NCBI GenBank assembly: GCA_025928185.1
Contig: JAICKA010000006.1
Location: 1-64,000 of the forward strand
Direction of reading: 5' to 3'
Origin: Gemmatimonadaceae bacterium
Lineage (GTDB): Bacteria; Gemmatimonadota; Gemmatimonadetes; Gemmatimonadales; Gemmatimonadaceae
Length of the DNA: 64,000 nt
Part shown: piece after piece, positions 1-12,259 of the stretch
How the letters are laid out: every line of letters starts with the position of its first letter
Numbering within the stretch: position 1 is the stretch's first letter
Made by a program: the position numbers and the translations under genes
The notes under the pieces: generated by a model
What the model was told of the DNA's origin: nothing
Databases searched by the model: none
The model's input: the letters and a program-made list of their open reading frames with translations, nothing else

Positions 1-267
1 GAGCTCGCGACGGATGAACAGGCCGCCTTCGATCAGCGCGTCGACGGCGGACGTGACGGAGCCTTCGGTCGAGTTTTCGATCGGGACCACACCGTACGCC
101 GCAGCGCCGCGGCGGATCGCGTCGAACACGCCCTCGATCGTCGGCGCCTGGACGAACTCGGCAACGCGCGGGAACAGCTCGCGCGCCGCCATGTCGGTGA
201 AGGTGCCGGATGGTCCGAGGAACGCGACGCGTGGAGGCTGAGGAATGGGCGACGGCGACGGCGTCAC
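1..267 (-). CDS. pheA: Prephenate dehydratase, N-terminal part (runs off window)
   Basis: Converts prephenate to phenylpyruvate in phenylalanine synthesis. The visible 89 residues contain the family start VAFLGPSGTFT and, further on, GVVPIENSTEGSV, both typical of the periplasmic-binding-like catalytic domain of PheA. The rest of the catalytic domain and the ACT regulatory domain lie outside the window. I chose the GTG at 265-267 as start because its last two bases begin the TGA stop of the upstream kinase (GTGA overlap). That suggests translational coupling to the amino-sugar operon. The identity is clear from the motifs; the full length is unknown. Confidence 0.85.
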   Translation of the reverse strand, partial: MTPSPSPIPQPPRVAFLGPSGTFTDMAARELFPRVAEFVQAPTIEGVFDAIRRGAAAYGVVPIENSTEGSVTSAVDALIEGGLFIRREL

Positions 268-1196
268 GCCATCGCCTCACCCGCCATTCGCAGCGCGCCG
301 CGGACGGCGCCGCGCGCGGCAATCACCGGCTCGGTGTTGATCTGAGCGCCAGGCACAGCGGATTTCAACCGATGCTCGAGTCGCTTGCGCAGCGTGCTGC
401 CGCGAGCGAGCATGCCGCCCGACAGCGCCACGGGCAGCGCCGCGCGTTCGTCGCCGAACAGCTCGCGCGCCAATGCCCGCACGTGAAGCACCAGCTCTTC
501 GACGGCGAGACTGACGAGCGCATTGGCGCGCAGATCGCCCGCGTCGGCCACGCTCAACACCACCGGCGCGAGCGTGGCCAGCTGGCGCGGCGGCGCGTCT
601 GCGGCCCAGGTGATGAGGTCCGCGGTTTCATTCACCTGGGCGGCCGTGAGCACGGCGCCGGTGAGTACCGTTTCGGGTTCCCGTCCGTCCGCGGCGGCGG
701 TGACCACCGACAGAGCGCGGCGTCCGATCCACGCGCCGCTGCCCTCGTCGCCGCACACCGGTCCCCACCCGCCGCAGCGCGACGTAACGCCGGTCGGGCT
801 GCGCCCGAACGCGACCGATCCCGTGCCGCTGATCAGCAGCACGCCCGGACCGTCCCCAAATGCGTCGTCGAGCGCGATGCTGAAATCGGAATGGATCACC
901 AGCTCCGAGGCGAGGTCGCGGGCGATCAGCGCCTGCCACAGCGCCTGGCGCTCGTGCTCGCGACCCGCGCCGGCGACGCCGACGCACAGCACGCGCGGCG
1001 TCACGTGTGTCATCTCGCACGACGCGAGGGCATCGTGCACGACGTCGGCGATGACGGCGGCCGACTCCTCGGCGCGGCCGGGCCGAACCGCGCTTCCGGG
1101 GCCGACCGTTTCCGCTATGATGCCGCCATGTTCGTCGGCGACCATGGCGTGCGTCTTCGAGCCGCCGCCGTCGATTCCAATTACGATGAACGTCAT
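264..1196 (-). CDS. BadF/BadG-type N-acetylhexosamine kinase (GlcNAc or MurNAc kinase)
   Basis: A 310-residue kinase of the actin-like ATPase fold that probably phosphorylates a cytoplasmic amino sugar with ATP. The N-terminal phosphate loop reads GIDGGGSKTHAMVAD, and further on there are LISGTGSVAFGR and GGWGPVCGDEGSGAWIG, which are the ATP and sugar motifs of the N-acetylglucosamine kinase/MurK family. The ATG at 1194-1196 overlaps the stop of the upstream symporter (ATGA). Its operon also encodes a NagB-type deaminase and a symporter, so a role in GlcNAc or MurNAc salvage is likely. Family motifs alone do not separate GlcNAc from MurNAc as substrate. Confidence 0.85.
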   Translation of the reverse strand: MTFIVIGIDGGGSKTHAMVADEHGGIIAETVGPGSAVRPGRAEESAAVIADVVHDALASCEMTHVTPRVLCVGVAGAGREHERQALWQALIARDLASELVIHSDFSIALDDAFGDGPGVLLISGTGSVAFGRSPTGVTSRCGGWGPVCGDEGSGAWIGRRALSVVTAAADGREPETVLTGAVLTAAQVNETADLITWAADAPPRQLATLAPVVLSVADAGDLRANALVSLAVEELVLHVRALARELFGDERAALPVALSGGMLARGSTLRKRLEHRLKSAVPGAQINTEPVIAARGAVRGALRMAGEAMA

Positions 1197-2719
1197 GGTG
1201 TAGCGGCTCGCGCCGACACGTTCGGACCGTGCGTCAGCGAGCAGAGAATGGCGACGAGAAGAGTGATCGCCGTACCGATCAACACGTACCACGGATAGGC
1301 GATGGTGGATATCGGGGGCCCGAGCAGGCCGGCGGTCGCCGGCACGGCGGCGATGATCTGCTTCGCGAACACCACGACACTCATCACGAGGATGCCGACC
1401 GACATGCCGATGATCGCGTCGCGCTCGCGCGCCCGACGCCAAAAGATAGCGAGGAAGAAGCCGCCAAGCAGACCGCCGTACGTGAACGAGGCGATCGACA
1501 GCGCGACGATCACGACCGGCGTCTGCGCGTTCTCCGGAAAGAGCAGCGCGCCGCCGGTGAGCACGATGCCCCAGAACAGCGAGAAGAGCTTGCCGACGTG
1601 CAACGTGCGTGCGTCGTCCGCCGCCCGTTTCGTGAGCGGCAGATAGATGTCGTGCGTGGCGGCGGCTGACAGCGAGTTGATCGCGCCCGCGTGCGTGCTC
1701 ATCGTTGCGGCGAGCACCGCGGCGAGCAGCAGGCCCACGAGCCCGTGGGGCATCTTGTCGACGATGAACGTCGGGAAGATTGCATCGGGAATCGGGAAAG
1801 GGCGGCCGCCGTACACGCCCCACAATCCGACGCCGAGCATGAGGAAAATGGCAAACTGGATGATCACGGCAACGCCGCTCCCGATGACCGCGACCTGCGC
1901 GTCGCGCAGCGACTTTGCCGACAACAGGCGCTGGACGATGAGCTGGTCGGCGCCATGGGACGCCATCGACAGGAACGCGCCGCCGAGCAGGCCAGCGAGA
2001 ACGGTATTGGCGCGGTCGAAGCCGGTGTACGTGTCGATGAAGCGCAGCTTGTGGACGGCGTGCGCCGCGGTGAGGATCGAGCCCCAGCCGCCGGCGACGA
2101 AGTGGCCGGCGAGCACGATGGCCGACAGTCCGCCAATGATGTAGACGGACGCCTGCACGATCTCGGTCCAGATCACGGCGCGCATGCCGCCCTTGATCGT
2201 ATAGAGAATCGTCAAGGTGCCGAGGACGAGGACGGCGACCGGCATGACGGCGGCGCGCGGCAGCAGCGGGCCGATGATCAGCGCGATCGGAACCGCCGTC
2301 GCGAACACGCGCACGGAGTCCGCCATGCCGCGCGTGACCATGAAGACGATCGACGTGAACCGGCGCGCGCCAATGCCGAACCGCTGCTCGAGCAACGCGT
2401 ACGCCGTGACGAGATTCCCCTCGTAGTACCGCGGCAGCAGCGTGAACGCGAGCACGATGCGCCCGAGCAGATAGCCGGCGGCGATCTGGAGAAAGCCCAG
2501 ATCCGTCATGTACGCCAGGCCGGGAATACTGATGAACGTCAGCGCGCTCGTCTCGGTGGCGACGATCGAGAACATCACTGCCCACCAGGGCATCGAGCGA
2601 TCGGTGACGAAATAATCGCGCGAGTCACGCTGCCGCCGCCCGACATACATGCCGAGCAGCGTGATGCCGACCAGATAGACGATGATGACGAGAAAATCGA
2701 GGGCGTTCAGCCCGCGCAT
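1193..2719 (-). CDS. Sodium:solute symporter (SSS family), amino-sugar operon
   Basis: A 508-residue polytopic membrane protein with about 13 hydrophobic helices. The first helix is followed by GRRQRDSRDYFVTDR and then MPWWAVMFSIVATETSA, the usual start of SSS transporters with the Na+-site region. TILYTIKGGMRAVIWTE in the middle is another family hallmark. It imports a solute with Na+. Its ATG follows the stop of the nagB fusion with no gap (TAG-ATG), and its own stop overlaps the kinase start. Position in the operon suggests an amino sugar or muropeptide sugar as substrate; this is inference. Confidence 0.85.
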   Translation of the reverse strand: MRGLNALDFLVIIVYLVGITLLGMYVGRRQRDSRDYFVTDRSMPWWAVMFSIVATETSALTFISIPGLAYMTDLGFLQIAAGYLLGRIVLAFTLLPRYYEGNLVTAYALLEQRFGIGARRFTSIVFMVTRGMADSVRVFATAVPIALIIGPLLPRAAVMPVAVLVLGTLTILYTIKGGMRAVIWTEIVQASVYIIGGLSAIVLAGHFVAGGWGSILTAAHAVHKLRFIDTYTGFDRANTVLAGLLGGAFLSMASHGADQLIVQRLLSAKSLRDAQVAVIGSGVAVIIQFAIFLMLGVGLWGVYGGRPFPIPDAIFPTFIVDKMPHGLVGLLLAAVLAATMSTHAGAINSLSAAATHDIYLPLTKRAADDARTLHVGKLFSLFWGIVLTGGALLFPENAQTPVVIVALSIASFTYGGLLGGFFLAIFWRRARERDAIIGMSVGILVMSVVVFAKQIIAAVPATAGLLGPPISTIAYPWYVLIGTAITLLVAILCSLTHGPNVSARAATP

Positions 2720-4687
2720 CTACTCGACCACATAGGCCTCCATGGCGAAGTACTCGGCGAGCCCGAGCCGGTCCAGCTCAGCGGCCGTGCCCTTGTTGCG
2801 CGCTTCCACGCGCTGCCAAAACTCGCGCTCGTCGTACCCGCCAGGGAAGGGGGCCGAGTCTTTTTGCGACTGATGCTTGAAGATCGCCTGGATCTTGAGC
2901 CGCAGCTCCTCCTGCGAGAGCGGCACGAGCCAGGTGGCCTCGTGAATCGGCCACTCCTGCCATGCGCCGCGATACAACCAGACTTCGGGCTGGCGTACTC
3001 GGCCAGATGTGCCGGTGTCGCCGTCGTCCGACGGCGCGCGCTCGGCCAGCGCGCGGTCGATCGCCTCCTTGCACATGCGATGCGTGCCGTGCGGGTCCGA
3101 GAGATCGCCGGCAACGAAGATGAGATCCGGCTGAATCTCGGCGAGCAGCTCGCGCACGATCGCCACGTCGGCCGGTCCGATCGGATCCTTGCGCACTTTG
3201 CCCGTCTGATAGAACGGCAGGTTGAGAAAGCGCGCCGCGCTGCGCGGCAGGCCGACGGTCTCGATGCCGCTCACCGCTTCCGCTTCGCGCAGGAGGCGCT
3301 TGATGTCCTGCACCTCGGGAATGTCGACTTCGCCCGGGTGCTTCCGATCGAGACATTCGTTCACGCGCGTCGCGAGCGCCTGCACGGGCTGCTCGTCGAG
3401 GCGACCTTCTGCCGCGAGACGCTGGAGGAAATCGACATAGCGGCGCACGTCGTGATCGAACACCGCAATGTTGCCACTCGTCATGTACGCGACGGTGATG
3501 TCGTTGTCATTCTCGGTGAGCTTGCGCAGAATGCCGCCCATCGAGATCACGTCGTCGTCCGGATGCGGGGAGAAGCAGATGATCTTCTGGCCCACGGGCA
3601 GCTTCGACTTGCCGCGGATCTTTGCGCCGAGGACGTTGAAGACCTTGCCGTTCACCTCGCCCGGCGAGCCGAACTTCGCGACGAGCGACGACATGCGGGC
3701 GTCGGCGTAGTCGCGCTGCGTGAGCTTGAGAATCGCCTTGCCCGTCTGCTGCGAGAGCCAGATCACTGCGCGGACGATGAGGTCCTGCGTCCACGTGACT
3801 TCGTCGATCAGCCACGGCGTCTTGATGCGCGTCAGCTCGGCGGCGGCGGCGCGATCGATGTAGAACGTGGTATTCGGGTGCTCCTGCAGGAACGTCGCGG
3901 CCACCTCGAGATCGATCTCGCCTTCGACCGCGCGCTGGACGATGCTGGCCTTGTGCTCACCCGTCGCAATGATGGCGATCTCGCGAGCCTCGAGAATCGT
4001 CGCGATGCCCATCGTCACCGCCTCGCGCGGGACGTATTCCTCGCCGAAGAAGTCGGCCGCCGCATCGCGTCGCGTGACGGCGTCGAGCGTGACGAGTCGC
4101 GTGCGACTGTCGGCGCCGGAGCCGGGCTCGTTGAAGCCGATGTGGCCGGTCTTGCCGATTCCGAGAATTTGAAAGTCGATCCCGCCGGCGCGCGCGATCG
4201 CGGCCTCGTAGCGCAGCGCCGCCTCCTCGATGTCCTCGCGCGGGAGACCGCCGGGCGGGATGTGGACGTTCGCCGGATCGATGTCGATGTGCGAGAACAG
4301 ATTCTCCCACATGAACCGATGGTAGGAGTGAATGCTCTCCTTCGGCATCGGATAGTACTCGTCGAGATTGAACGTCACGACGTTGGCGAAGCTCAGATGC
4401 TCCGTTTCGTGCATCCGAATCAGCTCACGATACACGCCAATCGGCGTCGAGCCCGTTGCCAGCCCGAGAACCGTCTGCTCGCCGGACGCGTCGCGCTCGC
4501 GAATGAGCGCTGCAATCCGATCCGCGACGAGCCGAGCGATGGCTTCGTGGTCTTCGACGACCACCGTGCGGATGCGTTCGGTGCCGAGAGGCGAATGCGA
4601 AACACGAGAGGGCCCGCGATTCTGTGAATCGCGGGCCCTCTCCGTCACGACCGCATCTCGGCGCATGCCTGCGACCGATCGTTCCAT
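2720..4687 (-). CDS. nagB: Glucosamine-6-phosphate deaminase fused to a PIG-L-type deacetylase domain
   Basis: A 655-residue two-domain enzyme. Residues about 40-300 are a NagB sugar-phosphate isomerase domain with GLATGSTPIGVY, NLDEYYPM and GIGKTGHIGFNEPGS. From about residue 370 a PIG-L/LmbE domain follows, with the metal motif SPHPDDDVISMGG and later DPHGTH. NagB opens and deaminates glucosamine-6-P to fructose-6-P; the PIG-L part could remove an N-acetyl group. The residue matching E. coli Asp141 is Thr180 (KTGH instead of NDGH), while His182 and Glu187 are kept. The long NagB form of Bacteroidetes-type genomes has, from memory, the same layout. Start 4687 has a good AGGTG ribosome site 5 nt upstream. 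A strong hairpin lies inside codons 16-28, so a start after it, such as the GTG at 4562-4564, cannot be excluded. Confidence 0.88.
   Translation of the reverse strand: MERSVAGMRRDAVVTERARDSQNRGPSRVSHSPLGTERIRTVVVEDHEAIARLVADRIAALIRERDASGEQTVLGLATGSTPIGVYRELIRMHETEHLSFANVVTFNLDEYYPMPKESIHSYHRFMWENLFSHIDIDPANVHIPPGGLPREDIEEAALRYEAAIARAGGIDFQILGIGKTGHIGFNEPGSGADSRTRLVTLDAVTRRDAAADFFGEEYVPREAVTMGIATILEAREIAIIATGEHKASIVQRAVEGEIDLEVAATFLQEHPNTTFYIDRAAAAELTRIKTPWLIDEVTWTQDLIVRAVIWLSQQTGKAILKLTQRDYADARMSSLVAKFGSPGEVNGKVFNVLGAKIRGKSKLPVGQKIICFSPHPDDDVISMGGILRKLTENDNDITVAYMTSGNIAVFDHDVRRYVDFLQRLAAEGRLDEQPVQALATRVNECLDRKHPGEVDIPEVQDIKRLLREAEAVSGIETVGLPRSAARFLNLPFYQTGKVRKDPIGPADVAIVRELLAEIQPDLIFVAGDLSDPHGTHRMCKEAIDRALAERAPSDDGDTGTSGRVRQPEVWLYRGAWQEWPIHEATWLVPLSQEELRLKIQAIFKHQSQKDSAPFPGGYDEREFWQRVEARNKGTAAELDRLGLAEYFAMEAYVVE
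4606..4642 (-). terminator. Perfect 17-bp hairpin between erpA and nagB (terminator or attenuator)
   Basis: Arms at 4606-4622 and 4626-4642 are perfectly complementary, with a 3-nt loop. On the minus strand the second arm is followed by GTGTTTCG, so there is no real T-run. The hairpin sits just after the erpA stop and within the first codons of the nagB frame. It may end part of the erpA transcription or attenuate nagB. The structure is certain; its function is not. Confidence 0.6.
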
Positions 4688-4709
4688 TGTTACACCTGCG
4701 ACACTCAGG

Positions 4710-5066
4710 TTACGCCGAGAACGAGCTGCCGCAACCGCAGCCGCCCGTTGCATTCGGATTCTTGAAGGTGAAACCGGAGCCCTGCATCGACGAGACGTAG
4801 TCGATCGTCACGCCGTTGATGTATTGCGCGGAGAACGGATCGACGAACACGCGCCACTCGCCCTGTTCAACGATGAGGTCGTCTTCGGCAGCCTCGTCCT
4901 CAATGAGCAGCCCGTATTTGAAGCCGCTGCAGCCGCCGGGTTGCACGCTGACGCGAAGCCCACCCTTGGCGGGATCGACGTTCTCCTGCTCCATGAACTT
5001 CTTCACTTCGGTGGAGGCGGCCGACGTCACGGTCACCAGCACCTCGGGTTGATTCATCGTGCTCAT
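4710..5066 (-). CDS. erpA: Iron-sulfur cluster insertion protein, ErpA/IscA type
   Basis: A 118-residue A-type Fe-S carrier that takes clusters from the assembly scaffold and delivers them to apo-proteins. The three conserved cysteines are present, one in QPGGCSGFKYG and two in the C-terminal GGCGCGS. The ATG at 5064-5066 is preceded by GGAGG with an 8-nt spacer, so the longer in-frame extension into the upstream repeat is not used. A sigma70-like promoter lies just upstream at 5092-5120. It is followed 22 bp later by the nagB fusion, an unusual neighbour. The A-type carrier assignment is firm; ErpA versus IscA is less so. Confidence 0.9.
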   Translation of the reverse strand: MSTMNQPEVLVTVTSAASTEVKKFMEQENVDPAKGGLRVSVQPGGCSGFKYGLLIEDEAAEDDLIVEQGEWRVFVDPFSAQYINGVTIDYVSSMQGSGFTFKNPNATGGCGCGSSFSA

Positions 5067-5091
5067 AAGTCGGACCTCCATTGGTCCCGGA

Positions 5092-5120
5092 AAATTAGCG
5101 GGGTTGGAGAGGTGATACAA
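5092..5120 (-). promoter_or_regulatory. Predicted sigma70 promoter of erpA
   Basis: On the minus strand there is TTGTAT (5115-5120), a 17-bp spacer and TAATTT (5092-5097). Transcription would start near 5085, leaving a leader of about 20 nt that holds the GGAGG site. The layout matches the promoter found for the tRNA-Leu in this window. Confidence 0.6.
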
Positions 5121-5235
5121 CGGTGGAACGGTGGAACGGTGGAACGGTGGAACGGGGAACGGCTGCGATTTCAGGCCTGAGATCTCGGATCTCGGCAGCT
5201 TCCGTTCATCCGTTCCACCATTCCTCCGTTCCACC
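5121..5235. repeat. Tandem 8-bp CGGTGGAA repeat with inverted copies downstream
   Basis: Four head-to-tail copies of CGGTGGAA span 5121-5152. Complementary words CCGTTCCACC occur at 5210-5219 and 5226-5235, so the region can fold back on itself. Between them is a short stretch rich in GATCTCGG words. It fills the gap between the symporter stop and the erpA promoter. The units are too short and lack spacers, so this is not a CRISPR array. Confidence 0.8.
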
Positions 5236-5240
5236 GTCTT

Positions 5241-7106
5241 TCAATCCGCCGCCTCCGCGCTCAACTCTTCGCGAACCGCGACCTCTGCCGGCGGTGGCGG
5301 CTCGGAGCGGAACGAGCGCGCGATCCAGGCGAACGCGAGGGCCGCGATGGCGAGCATGATGAATCCGCTCGTCAGCTCGCCGAAGATCAATTTGCCGCTG
5401 CCGAACAAGGACGCATACACGGCCACGATGCCAGCGATCCAGTTCGTCCAGGCCAGCGCGCCGCCCGGGATCGACTCGCGACCCAGGCCCAGTCGCTCGG
5501 ACACGCGCCTCCATCCGGGCCCACCGGGACGCACTCGCAGATAGAAGGTATCGAGCACCGCCGGGGCCTCGGGAGCGGTCAGATACGTCACCGCCAGCCA
5601 GACCACCGTGCTCACCGCGACGGTGATCAGCATGATCACGGAGTCGGTGCGCGGATCGTCAGCCGGGAACCAGCGACCCGGCACGGTCAGAAAGCAAATG
5701 GCGGACACGACGAACGAGGCAATCATCGCGCTGATTTCCGACCAGGCGCTGATGCGCCACCAGTACCAGCGCAGAATCAACACGAGCCCGGTGCCGGCGC
5801 CGATCGCGAGCAGGAACTTCCACGCGCCCTCCACCGACGAGAGCTGCCAGCTCACGACCGACGAGGCCAGAAAGAGAGCCACCGTCGTCCACCGCGAGAC
5901 TTTCACGTAGTGCCGCTCCGCGGCGACCTTGTTGAGGAATCGGCGGTACACGTCGTTGACGAGGTACGATGCTCCCCAGTTGAGCTGCGTGGCCACGGTC
6001 GACATGTACGCGGCGGCGAAGCCGGCCATCATGAATCCGCGCCACGGTGTCGGGAGCAGATCGACGAATGCCTGCACGTACGCGGCTTCGTGGTCGTGCG
6101 TCGGACCGATGCCATTCGGATAGAGAATCACCGTGGCGAGACCGGTGATGATCCACGGCCACGGCCGTAGCGCGTACTGCGCGACCTGGAACGACAGCGT
6201 GGCCAGCACGCCGTCGCGTTCCGTACGCGCGGAGAAGATGCGTTGCGCGATGTACCCGCCGCCGCCCGGCTCGGCGCCCGGATACCACGCCGCCCACCAC
6301 TGCACGCCGAGGAATACCGCGAGTGTCAACAGCGGCATCCACGCGTAGGTTGTGATGCCGTGCGTCGTCACGGTGATCGGCATCACGGACAGCGCAGCCG
6401 TCTGGCTGCCGAAATGCGCGATGAGCTTGGTCTTCATCGCCGGCATGCCGCCAACGGCAGACACCGCGAACACGGCGAGCACGGTCACCGCCGCCATCTT
6501 GATCACGAACTGCACGAGATCGGTCCACAGCACCGCCCACATGCCGGCGGCGACCGAATACGACATCGTGATCACGAAGCAGATGCCGATGGCGATCATG
6601 TCGCCCGGAATCGTGATGCCCGCGACGACGACCGGCCGGAGCCCCAGCGAGATCGTGAGAATCTTGATCATCGCCCGCGTGACCCAGCCGAGGATGATCA
6701 GGTTGATCGGCACCGCGAGATAGAGCGCGCGGAAGACCCGGAGCGTCGCCGCGGGCTTGCCGCTGTACCGCACCTCGGCGAATTCGACATCCGTCATCAC
6801 GTTGGCGCGGCGCCACAATCGGGCGAAGAAGAACACGGTGAGCATGCCGCTCATCAGCATGTTCCACCACAGCCAGTTGCCGGCGACACCATGCGACGAC
6901 ACGAGTCCCGTCACGACGAGCGGCGTGTCGGCAGCGAACGTCGTCGCTACCATCGACGCGCCGGCGAGCCACCAGGGCACCGCGCGGCCGGAGATGAAAT
7001 ACTCCGACAGGCTCTCGCCGCCCTTCCGCGTGAATGCGAGGCCGATGCCGGCCGAGAGCAGGAAGTAGCTGGCGACGATCGCCCAATCGACCCAGGTCAG
7101 AGTCAT
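5241..7106 (-). CDS. Sodium:solute symporter (SSS family), partner of the serine hydrolase
   Basis: A 621-residue multi-helix inner-membrane protein. The start WAIVASYFLLSAGIGLAFTR, then SEYFISGRAVPWWLAG and SMVATTFAADTP, are SSS signatures, as is AAGMWAVLWTDLVQF. It is longer at its C-terminus than the other symporter in this window and only distantly similar to it. Its ATG overlaps the stop of the AmiE-like hydrolase (ATGA at 7103-7106), so the two are made together. It probably imports a product released by NamZ and the hydrolase in the periplasm, for example MurNAc or a muropeptide fragment; this is inference from context. Confidence 0.85.
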   Translation of the reverse strand: MTLTWVDWAIVASYFLLSAGIGLAFTRKGGESLSEYFISGRAVPWWLAGASMVATTFAADTPLVVTGLVSSHGVAGNWLWWNMLMSGMLTVFFFARLWRRANVMTDVEFAEVRYSGKPAATLRVFRALYLAVPINLIILGWVTRAMIKILTISLGLRPVVVAGITIPGDMIAIGICFVITMSYSVAAGMWAVLWTDLVQFVIKMAAVTVLAVFAVSAVGGMPAMKTKLIAHFGSQTAALSVMPITVTTHGITTYAWMPLLTLAVFLGVQWWAAWYPGAEPGGGGYIAQRIFSARTERDGVLATLSFQVAQYALRPWPWIITGLATVILYPNGIGPTHDHEAAYVQAFVDLLPTPWRGFMMAGFAAAYMSTVATQLNWGASYLVNDVYRRFLNKVAAERHYVKVSRWTTVALFLASSVVSWQLSSVEGAWKFLLAIGAGTGLVLILRWYWWRISAWSEISAMIASFVVSAICFLTVPGRWFPADDPRTDSVIMLITVAVSTVVWLAVTYLTAPEAPAVLDTFYLRVRPGGPGWRRVSERLGLGRESIPGGALAWTNWIAGIVAVYASLFGSGKLIFGELTSGFIMLAIAALAFAWIARSFRSEPPPPAEVAVREELSAEAAD

Positions 7107-8305
7107 TGATGGGCCGACGACAGGAGGACGCTCATCACCGCATCAGCCAGCTGAATGCGCACGCGATTCTCGCGGTTGTTCGCGCGCGTTGGGTCGACGC
7201 GGTTGGTCAGCAGGATGATGAACACGTTGTGATCCGGATCGATCCAGATGGAGGTACCGGTGAAGCCGGTGTGTCCGAACGCGTCTTCCGACATCAGATG
7301 GCCGGCGGAATTCGTCCCGCTCGGCTTCTGCCAACCCAGCGCCCGGTCGGCGACCTGCCGCTTCGTGAAGACGGGAATGAGCGCGGCCGGTAACACCCGT
7401 GTGCCGTCGATCACGCCATGATTGAGGTACATCTGCGCGAACCGGGTCAGATCGTGCGCGCTGCTGAAGAGGCCCGCGTGCGCCGACACACCGCCGAGAT
7501 AGTACGCGCGTTCGTCGTGGACCTTGCCGCGAACGAGACCGCCGCGCTTCGGGTCGAACTCGGTCGGGGCGATGCGCGGAATGAGCGAGGCCGGCGGCTT
7601 GTACATCGTCTCGTGCATGCCCGCCGGCTCGAACACGTGCTCGTGCAAATAGACATCGAGCGTCTGCCCGGTGATCTTCTCGAGCACGCGGCCGAGCATA
7701 TAGGCTCCGATGTCGCTGTAGACCATGCGTGCGCCGGGCGTGGTGTCGAGCGGGGTATTGAACATCAACTTGGCGAGGCTGTCCGGGTCATGCGTGATCT
7801 GATCGTAGGGTTCGAACGCCGGCAGCCCCGAGGTGTGCGTGATCAGATGGCGAATCGTGACCTCACTCTTGTGCGGTCCGGTCCAATCCGGCAGATAGCG
7901 CTGCACGGGCGCGTCCATGTCGATGCGGCCCTGAGCGTCCAGCTGCATGATGCCGCTCGTCAATCCGATTACCTTCGTGAGCGACGCGAGATCCCAGAGC
8001 GTATGCTCGTTCGGCACGGGACTCGGCGCCCAATCGAGATGTCCAACGGCATGCTGCGCGATGACTCGCGTCCGCGTGCCGACGACGGCGATCGCACCGG
8101 GATAGGCGCTGTCGGCCAGACCTCGCGCCAGCACATTGGCAACGGAGTCGCGAATGGCCGCATCGGCCTGAGGTGACAGCTGGGCTTCGCCTGATGAGGG
8201 GCCGGCGGGTACGGATTGCGCAGGAACGGCTTGCGCCGGACGGCAGCCGACGACGAGAAGCGCTGCGACGAGAACGACGCCGACGGAGGATCGAGGGATA
8301 TGCAT
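7103..8305 (-). CDS. Serine hydrolase of the beta-lactamase family, AmiE-like lipoprotein
   Basis: A 400-residue secreted hydrolase with a lipoprotein signal peptide (hydrophobic run ending LLVVGC). The class C beta-lactamase-type active site is visible as ASLTK (SxxK), YSDIG (Y-S-D/N) and HTGFTG near the C-terminus. In Bacillus subtilis a protein of this family, AmiE, removes the peptide from MurNAc and is encoded beside NagZ and NamZ. Here it is divergent from namZ, so the same role is plausible. D,D-carboxypeptidase or esterase activity cannot be excluded. Its ATG shares the palindrome ATGCAT with the namZ start. No clear ribosome site is visible. Confidence 0.8.
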   Translation of the reverse strand: MHIPRSSVGVVLVAALLVVGCRPAQAVPAQSVPAGPSSGEAQLSPQADAAIRDSVANVLARGLADSAYPGAIAVVGTRTRVIAQHAVGHLDWAPSPVPNEHTLWDLASLTKVIGLTSGIMQLDAQGRIDMDAPVQRYLPDWTGPHKSEVTIRHLITHTSGLPAFEPYDQITHDPDSLAKLMFNTPLDTTPGARMVYSDIGAYMLGRVLEKITGQTLDVYLHEHVFEPAGMHETMYKPPASLIPRIAPTEFDPKRGGLVRGKVHDERAYYLGGVSAHAGLFSSAHDLTRFAQMYLNHGVIDGTRVLPAALIPVFTKRQVADRALGWQKPSGTNSAGHLMSEDAFGHTGFTGTSIWIDPDHNVFIILLTNRVDPTRANNRENRVRIQLADAVMSVLLSSAHQ

Positions 8306-9625
8306 CGTGAACGAGTGAAGAGGGTGGAGCGGACGATTTGCCTCGCGGCGACGCTCGGCGTCGCGATCGGGTGTGCGACGACGAGATCCGCCGCGCGACG
8401 CTCGAGCGCGGAGGTGAGCGGCGGCATGATGCGCGTGCGGCCCGGCATCACCGTGCTGCTCGAGGATAGTCTGGCACTGATCCGCGGCCGGCGCATCGGG
8501 CTCCTGACGAATCAGACCGGCATCGATGCAGCGGGCGTTTCCGATATCGAGCTGCTGCGCGACGCCAGGGCGCGCGACGCCGGGGTCACTCTCGTCCGGC
8601 TGTTCTCGCCCGAGCACGGGATCCGCGGCACCGAAGATCGGCAGCACATCGCGAGCGGTGTCGACGAACGCAGCGGATTGCCGGTGCATTCGCTCTACAC
8701 CGTCACGGCAATCGCGCCGCCGGACAGCCTGCTTCGCGATCTCGATGCGCTGGTGTTCGATCTGCAGGACATCGGCACCCGGACGTGGACGTATGTGGGA
8801 TCGATGGTCTACGCGTTGCGTGCGGCGGCGCGCAATCACGTGCCAATCATCGTGCTCGATCGCCCGAACCCCATCACCGGCGATCACGTCGACGGTCCCA
8901 TGCTCGACGCTGCACTGTCGAACGCGGAGGAACAATCGGCGGAGCGCCCGGCCAAGCCGTACGCATTATACCCATTCCCACTGCGGCACGGAATGACGAT
9001 GGGCGAGCTGGCGCTCTTCTACAACGACGTCCTGAACATTCACGCGCCGCTACACGTCATTCCGATGACAGGCTGGCGACGCGGCGAATGGTTCGACGAA
9101 ACCGGGCTTCCATGGGTAAGGCCGTCGCCGAATCTGCCGGACCTCGTCAGCGCACTGGTGTATCCGTCGCTCGTCCCATTCGAGGGTTCGAATGTGTCGG
9201 TCGGTCGCGGCACGCCTGAGGCCTTCCAGCGTTTCGGCGCGCCGTGGATGAACGCGGCGCGCGTAGCCGCGCTGCTCGGCTCGCGGCATCTCGCCGGCGT
9301 TCGATTCGACGTCGACTCGTTCACGCCCCGCAATCCGGGCGATCAGAAGTACGGTGGTCGAACGATTCCAGGCGTGCGTGTCGTGGTCACGGACCGCAAC
9401 GCGGTACAGTCCGGTCGTCTCGCGGCGAACATCCTGTGGGCGCTCCTCAGCACGAATCGCGACTCGCTGCGGATCTCGCCGCGAACATTCGACGAACGCT
9501 TCGGCAGCACGGCAGCGCGTGAGGCAATCATGGGCGGCGCGGACCCCGATCGTGTGATGGACGCGCAGCGCGGCGCGGTCGACGCGTTCATGGCGAGAGC
9601 GCGGCGATACCGGCTCTATCCGTGA
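8300..9625 (+). CDS. namZ: Exo-beta-N-acetylmuramidase NamZ (DUF1343 family), lipoprotein
   Basis: A 441-residue protein of the DUF1343 family, whose characterised Bacillus member NamZ cleaves terminal MurNAc from peptidoglycan chains. Family motifs are LLTNQTGID, FSPEHGIRG, VFDLQDIGTRTWTY, LDRPNPITG and FYNDVLNIHA. The N-terminus is a lipoprotein signal ending VAIGC, placing the enzyme in the periplasm or at the membrane. GGAGG at 8285-8289 lies 10 nt before the ATG. The six bases 8300-8305 serve as start region for this gene and for the divergent hydrolase. Together with the symporters, kinase and NagB it points to cell-wall sugar recovery. Confidence 0.85.
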   Translation: MHRERVKRVERTICLAATLGVAIGCATTRSAARRSSAEVSGGMMRVRPGITVLLEDSLALIRGRRIGLLTNQTGIDAAGVSDIELLRDARARDAGVTLVRLFSPEHGIRGTEDRQHIASGVDERSGLPVHSLYTVTAIAPPDSLLRDLDALVFDLQDIGTRTWTYVGSMVYALRAAARNHVPIIVLDRPNPITGDHVDGPMLDAALSNAEEQSAERPAKPYALYPFPLRHGMTMGELALFYNDVLNIHAPLHVIPMTGWRRGEWFDETGLPWVRPSPNLPDLVSALVYPSLVPFEGSNVSVGRGTPEAFQRFGAPWMNAARVAALLGSRHLAGVRFDVDSFTPRNPGDQKYGGRTIPGVRVVVTDRNAVQSGRLAANILWALLSTNRDSLRISPRTFDERFGSTAAREAIMGGADPDRVMDAQRGAVDAFMARARRYRLYP

Positions 9626-10227: not shown

Positions 10228-10923
10228 ATGAAGATTCTCCCGGAGTGGCTCAAAAACGGATACTTGCGCGTCATTGATCCGGTAGCCAACTGGCTGGTCC
10301 GGCGTGGAGTTCACCCAAACATCATTACCGCCGTCGGCACGCTGTGCACGGTTGCCGGTGGGGTGATTTACGCCACCGGGCACATTATGACCGGCGGCTG
10401 GTTCCTCGGATTGACCGCGCTGTTCGACGTGCTCGACGGCACCGTGGCGCGACGATCGAACCGCAGCTCGACCTTCGGCGCGTTTCTCGATTCCACGCTC
10501 GACCGGCTGGCGGACGGAGCGCTCCTCGGCGGCCTCGCCGTGTTCTACGCGCTCAATCCGGCGCACCACAACGTTCCGATGCTCGTGGTGTGTTTGACGG
10601 GACTGATCGGCGCTTTTCTCACCTCGTACACCCGGGCGCGCGCCGAAGCGCTCGGTATCGATGCCAAGGTTGGCATCCTGCAGCGTCCCGAGCGCGTCGT
10701 GCTGCTCTCCGCGCCGCAGGCCTTCTTCGGGCTGGCACTCAACGGCCTGGTGCTTGGAATCATCATCATCATTCTTGCCGCGACCGCGTGGATCACCGTC
10801 GTCCAGCGCATGGTCTGTGTCTATGAACAGACGGCCCGCCGCGCGGCCGACGATGGCACGCTGCGGCTGACGACCGAGAAGACGCCGTGGATCCGGCGTC
10901 GGCGCGCGGCGTCGCATCGTTAA
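10228..10923 (+). CDS. CDP-alcohol phosphatidyltransferase, probably phosphatidylinositol-phosphate synthase
   Basis: A 231-residue membrane enzyme that transfers a phosphatidyl group from CDP-diacylglycerol to an alcohol. The full family motif is present: Asp67, Asp70-Gly71, Ala74-Arg75, Gly84, Asp88 and Asp92 (FDVLDGTVARR followed by GAFLDSTLD). Several hydrophobic helices follow. The next gene, 7 bp downstream, makes inositol-1-phosphate, so inositol phosphate is the likely acceptor, as in actinobacterial PIP synthase. Phosphatidylglycerophosphate synthase is the alternative; the motif alone does not decide. Confidence 0.8.
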   Translation: MKILPEWLKNGYLRVIDPVANWLVRRGVHPNIITAVGTLCTVAGGVIYATGHIMTGGWFLGLTALFDVLDGTVARRSNRSSTFGAFLDSTLDRLADGALLGGLAVFYALNPAHHNVPMLVVCLTGLIGAFLTSYTRARAEALGIDAKVGILQRPERVVLLSAPQAFFGLALNGLVLGIIIIILAATAWITVVQRMVCVYEQTARRAADDGTLRLTTEKTPWIRRRRAASHR

Positions 10924-10930
10924 GTATCAC

Positions 10931-12259
<1,329 letters not shown>

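Follow-up and report, generated by a model that had tools for sequence, protein, structure and literature searches.

Among the described systems closest to the locus reported here, Tannerella forsythia takes up N-acetylmuramic acid (MurNAc) independently of the phosphotransferase system (PTS), via MurT, a transporter of the sodium symporter superfamily that operates with MurK and MurQ (PMC5790795). That report gives the family of MurT in two ways, as its discussion once terms MurT a major facilitator (PMC5790795). Bacillus subtilis carries the cluster murQRP-amiE-nagZ-ybbC, as set out in PMC5061867, and the gene order in Escherichia coli is murQ-murP-yfeW. Here we describe a locus at positions 264-9625 of a 64,000-nucleotide stretch of DNA (the window; C114:1-64000) from a Gemmatimonadaceae bacterium, whose source assembly is a 3.71-Mb draft of 288 contigs that is 90% complete. 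We judge it fairly likely, with real room for doubt, that this locus serves to salvage peptidoglycan sugars without a PTS, by a pathway that ends in a fusion of NagB and PIG-L domains.

Window proteins were assigned by Pfam and NCBIfam profile matches, and all of the genes named at this locus in an initial annotation, made from the sequence alone, were identified in this way; that annotation had passed over the ErpA-like gene. On the minus strand the order is a beta-lactamase-family serine hydrolase of the AmiE/PBP4B type (7103-8305; PF00144, 219 bits), sodium:solute symporter (SSS) B (5241-7106; PF00474, 106 bits), an ErpA-like (ErpA/IscA-type) iron-sulfur insertion protein (4710-5081; NF010147, 117.8 bits against a cut-off of 117), the NagB/PIG-L fusion (2720-4687; PF01182 plus PF02585), SSS symporter A (1193-2719; PF00474, 148 bits, with TIGR00813 above cut-off), and a MurK/NagK-like BadF-type amino-sugar kinase (264-1196; PF01869, 129 bits). 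The exo-beta-N-acetylmuramidase NamZ (8300-9625) is divergent, on the plus strand. Read from the kinase end, the minus-strand intergenic distances are -4, 0, 22, 159, and -4 nt. This spacing is operon-like, with two 4-nt overlaps (one of them shared by the kinase and symporter A genes), and the fusion gene sits in the middle of the operon.

In the proposed pathway the AmiE-type hydrolase would act outside the inner membrane, trimming peptides off muropeptides, and NamZ together with NagZ-type glycoside hydrolase family 3 (GH3) enzymes would release MurNAc and N-acetylglucosamine (GlcNAc). The free sugars may be imported by one or both of the SSS symporters and phosphorylated at C6 by the BadF-type kinase. 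MurQ, which is encoded elsewhere beside AnmK, would convert MurNAc-6-phosphate to GlcNAc-6-phosphate (GlcNAc-6-P). The PIG-L domain of the fusion could then deacetylate GlcNAc-6-P to glucosamine-6-phosphate (GlcN-6-P), the step taken by NagA in other bacteria, and the NagB domain could deaminate GlcN-6-P to fructose-6-phosphate.

The grouping of these genes recurs in relatives. We hand-picked 20 relatives' loci from 80 other NamZ places, choosing long contigs and the longer-spaced type of NamZ found in the window. The kinase, symporter A, the ErpA-like gene, and NamZ are all present in 20 of the 20, so their grouping exceeds chance. The hydrolase occurs in 11 of these loci, symporter B in eight, and a NagZ-type GH3 gene in five.

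NamZ scores above the gathering threshold for both of its domains (NamZ_N, PF07075, 223 bits; NamZ_C, PF20732, 121 bits), is the sole NamZ in the source genome, and matches two solved proteins that were deposited without a function name. The adjacent hydrolase shares 29% identity with E. coli YfeW (PBP4B) across most of its length (E = 1e-46); its best NCBIfam model is likewise that for PBP4B (NF002968), with a score under that model's cut-off. The initial annotation took both proteins to be lipoproteins, which is plausible given the lipobox-like sequences AIGC at Cys25 of NamZ and VVGC at Cys21 of the hydrolase. The called starts of the two divergent genes overlap in a palindromic ATGCAT (8300-8305). 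Probably one of the starts lies further in, or the promoters are inside the opposite genes.

The closest solved chain to the kinase is 8zo3, an N-acetylmuramic acid/N-acetylglucosamine kinase (E = 8.7e-36), which we take to be MurK of Clostridium acetobutylicum. Lower-scoring matches include human NagK (2ch5) and the chains 8oqw and 8ow9 ("ATPase" and "putative novel MurNAc kinase"). According to PMC10465942, use of MurNAc is decided at two kinase positions, S133-P134-L135 and T94, where no bulky residue is present. The window kinase has small residues at the corresponding positions, C141-G142-G143 and S103, as placed by motif rather than by structure. The CGG stretch hardly varies among 21 family kinases, 20 of which have T, S, A, or P at position 103; the first position is also free of bulky residues in human NagK. 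The pocket therefore appears permissive for the lactyl group, which would allow use of MurNAc while not proving it, and we predict that the enzyme is a MurNAc/GlcNAc 6-kinase. The two symporters, which are 25% identical to each other, are putative amino-sugar transporters.

The fusion belongs to the NF002557/PRK02122 NagB-like family, with a score of 903 bits (cut-off, 384). At least 585 fusion relatives were confirmed, and the nearest named ones among the matches listed are from Gemmatimonadaceae, Gemmatimonas, and Gemmatimonadetes. In an AlphaFold model (mean predicted local distance difference test score, 88.5), residues ~38-291 align with NagB enzymes (the eight best have Z 35.7-38.1 and root-mean-square deviation [rmsd] 1.1-1.9). 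Structural matches to residues ~355-655 are BshB, diacetylchitobiose deacetylases, and MshB (Z ~16-21). For BshB and the diacetylchitobiose deacetylases (Dac) specifically, Z is 20-21 and rmsd 2.8-3.8 over 206-221 aligned residues, and the latter are the solved proteins closest to the PIG-L half by sequence profile. Among 80 fusions (79 from named genomes plus that of the window), the NagB residues D109, H182, and E187 are invariant, as are the PIG-L residues H375, D377, D378, H533, and H536 of the HPDD and HGTH motifs. In addition to the window fusion, alignment A2 includes 47 of the 79 usable frames.

A further signature of the fusions is not explained. At the position of T180, which aligns with a site that is presumably D141 in the numbering of E. 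coli NagB, 79 of the 80 fusions have T or S and one has N; stand-alone NagB enzymes differ from the fusions at this site. In eight of 80 fusion loci of other bacteria, MurQ is ~1 kb from the fusion. A DeoR-type regulator flanks the fusion in the two of these loci that were annotated: in L104 it lies between the two genes, and in L126 it is on the side of the fusion away from MurQ, with a BadF-type kinase beside MurQ.

MurQ is present in the source genome in two pieces, at C95:6-617 and C271:12879-13241. Contig C271 is 13,275 bases long, and its end overlaps the start of C95 exactly by 141 bases, so we conclude that there is one murQ gene, split by the assembly. AnmK directly adjoins it (C271:11737-12846). 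We also identified two GH3 genes outside the window's contig with the motif KHFPGHG(D/N)TD..SH, of which KHFPGHG is, we assume, the mark of NagZ-type enzymes. Of 59 family genomes, 56 have a MurQ match above cut-off, the split copy of the source genome being additional, and NamZ was found in 56 of the 59. MurQ is unlinked to the symporter/kinase locus, and no salvage-locus genes were detected (E<=1e-8) around MurQ in 10 relatives or on the two contigs of the source genome.

The initial annotation had proposed a salvage route without PTS and MurQ, and had seen no murQ or nagZ in the window. No match to murQ or GH3 was detected on the window's contig, in agreement with it, whereas at the level of the genome the absence of either gene is rejected, by the joined murQ fragments and by the two NagZ-type GH3 genes. 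The idea that the locus works instead of MurQ thus fails. The PTS-free part is supported, as no match to PTS EIIC (PF02378) was detected in the 90% complete draft, with a control search positive in seven of 14 genomes. A full PTS-MurQ route elsewhere in the genome had been named as counter-evidence; its MurQ half is present, and its PTS half was not detected.

Does the fusion replace NagA? NagA (TIGR00221, E<=1e-20) was detected in none of the 59 family genomes and the fusion is carried by 46 of them, a distribution that favors replacement. In the source genome we considered whether a NagA was hidden behind weak matches to TIGR00221, and rejected these as HutI and other amidohydrolases. All 11 distinct amidohydrolase frames there (from 15 PF01979 places) were scanned, and none is NagA; a partial check of relative G022 covered just nine such frames (E<=1e-35). 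Beyond the family, 50 fusion-bearing genomes from several phyla were drawn from 80 by leaving out 22, mostly with short contigs, and then eight more, before results were seen. No NagA match (E<=1e-8) was detected in 34 of the 50, and one more has a short, weak match. The 11 fusion genomes with Gemmatimonadota-type names (L082 to L100 as used, and L107) yielded no NagA match. From these distributions, together with the likeness of the PIG-L half to GlcNAc deacetylases and its invariant motif residues, the fusion probably replaces NagA. A broader proposal is that NF002557 is a self-contained GlcNAc-6-P deacetylase/deaminase, in which the role of the unrelated NagA is taken over by a metal-dependent PIG-L domain that supplies GlcN-6-P to the NagB domain of the same protein. 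Amino-sugar catabolism would then ordinarily end with this fusion in Gemmatimonadota and in much of Bacteroidota and Planctomycetota, and the fusion would belong to a complete wall-sugar pathway that needs no PTS. We regard the chances of this proposal as evenly balanced.

Several observations weigh against the salvage pathway ending in the fusion. Each substrate assignment, including the specificity of transport and the action of PIG-L on GlcNAc-6-P, is one that we infer. A NagA-like gene accompanies the fusion in 15 of the 50 genomes (E<=2e-44), in five of them above cut-off. The NagA model failed to detect the B. subtilis control at 1e-20, although B. subtilis presumably has nagA; the sensitivity of the model is therefore limited, and absence of NagA partly rests on the amidohydrolase survey. 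The fusion is at the locus in just seven of the 20 chosen relatives. Moreover, 13 of the 59 relatives (G001, G007, G009, G017, G019, G021, G023, G032, G035, G044, G045, G052, and G056) lack the fusion, NagA, and NagB above cut-off (two have weak NagB matches), yet keep MurQ and NamZ. Completeness is 92% or more in 12 of the 13, so how the pathway ends in these relatives is unclear.

The fusion-less relatives are in line with an alternative in which the system serves recycling rather than catabolism. GlcNAc-6-P or GlcN-6-P derived from MurNAc would be returned to UDP-GlcNAc, and the fusion would be an optional side branch or would act on another acetylated amino sugar. This would account for the retention of NamZ and MurQ in those 13 genomes and of the kinase and symporter A in the five of them with loci examined, and the position of AnmK beside MurQ suggests turnover of the cell's own wall. 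The retention of the fusion in 46 of 59 genomes in which no NagA was found, and its place in mid-operon in the window, argue the other way, and we consider recycling rather unlikely. A second alternative is utilization of GlcNAc from chitin or other glycans, with a kinase and symporters specific for GlcNAc and with NamZ and the hydrolase sharing the neighborhood for wall remodeling. The kinase does also match GlcNAc kinases (NF046058, 109.7 bits, far under the cut-off of 370), and MurQ is missing from the examined stretch of 72 of the 80 fusion loci in named genomes. However, the best solved match of the kinase acts on both MurNAc and GlcNAc, NamZ occurs with the kinase and symporter A in all of the chosen loci, and almost every family genome has MurQ, so that use of GlcNAc only seems to us quite improbable.

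It is also conceivable that gene order is generally slow to change in this family, and that the genes are neighbors by chance and share no function. In line with this, genes for a CDP-alcohol transferase (19 of 20) and inositol-phosphate synthase (16 of 20) are at the chosen loci along with the ErpA-like gene (20 of 20); as these are about as conserved as the sugar genes, synteny alone is weak evidence for the salvage pathway. Overlapping stop and start codons, and a gene set that matches the murQ clusters of B. subtilis and E. coli, speak against a chance neighborhood, which we regard as very unlikely.

Other features at or near the locus remain to be mentioned. The ErpA-like gene (4710-5081) is embedded in the operon, and no iron-sulfur enzyme of the pathway accounts for its product. 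Adjoining the salvage locus, the window encodes a CDP-alcohol phosphatidyltransferase and then a myo-inositol-1-phosphate synthase (10228-12259), which may constitute a phosphatidylinositol pathway in this lineage. On the other side, a partial prephenate dehydratase (PheA; 1-249, minus strand; PF00800, 77 bits) is truncated by the contig end, and is probably a flanking gene outside the pathway. In relative L042, a 301-residue open frame without a Pfam match lies between symporter A and the kinase (L042:11092-11994); open frames in the gaps of that locus gave no Pfam matches.

Overall, the salvage locus is real and conserved, ordinary in principle, and contains one under-studied enzyme. In open-licence literature searched by title and abstract, we found no study of the function of the deacetylase half of the fusion, and no paper, among the matches listed, on this pathway in Gemmatimonas or Gemmatimonadota. 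If the proposed pathway is correct, PTS-free salvage of MurNAc, known in Tannerella, would extend to a family-wide locus of another lineage. It would also explain how bacteria without detected NagA finish amino-sugar breakdown, and would give a functional role to a large family that now bears a vague name and has two invariant sets of motif residues.

Independence from the PTS is not itself new, given the symporter/kinase/MurQ route already described in T. forsythia (PMC5790795). As in that MurT-MurK-MurQ route, the window's genome combines a sodium symporter, an ATP-dependent kinase, and MurQ with no detected PTS, and the symporter adjoins the BadF-type kinase. Unlike the T. forsythia system as given there, murQ is unlinked and lies beside anmK, and the locus adds NamZ, the AmiE-type hydrolase, and the NagB/PIG-L fusion. 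The outer module of AmiE-type hydrolase and NamZ, joined by an in-locus NagZ-type enzyme in five of the 20 relatives, instead resembles the B. subtilis cluster, which uses the PTS transporter MurP along with MurR (PMC5061867) where the window locus has symporters and an ATP-dependent kinase. The E. coli murQ-murP-yfeW operon shares a homolog of the window hydrolase, YfeW, but has a PTS transporter and no NamZ. In this comparison we take ybbC of B. subtilis to be the gene later named namZ. At the level of single enzymes, the closest solved relative of the window kinase is the MurNAc/GlcNAc kinase 8zo3, from which its own substrate is predicted. Relative to these known systems, the locus is a variant, in its combination of genes in this lineage and in the fusion as the proposed terminal enzyme.

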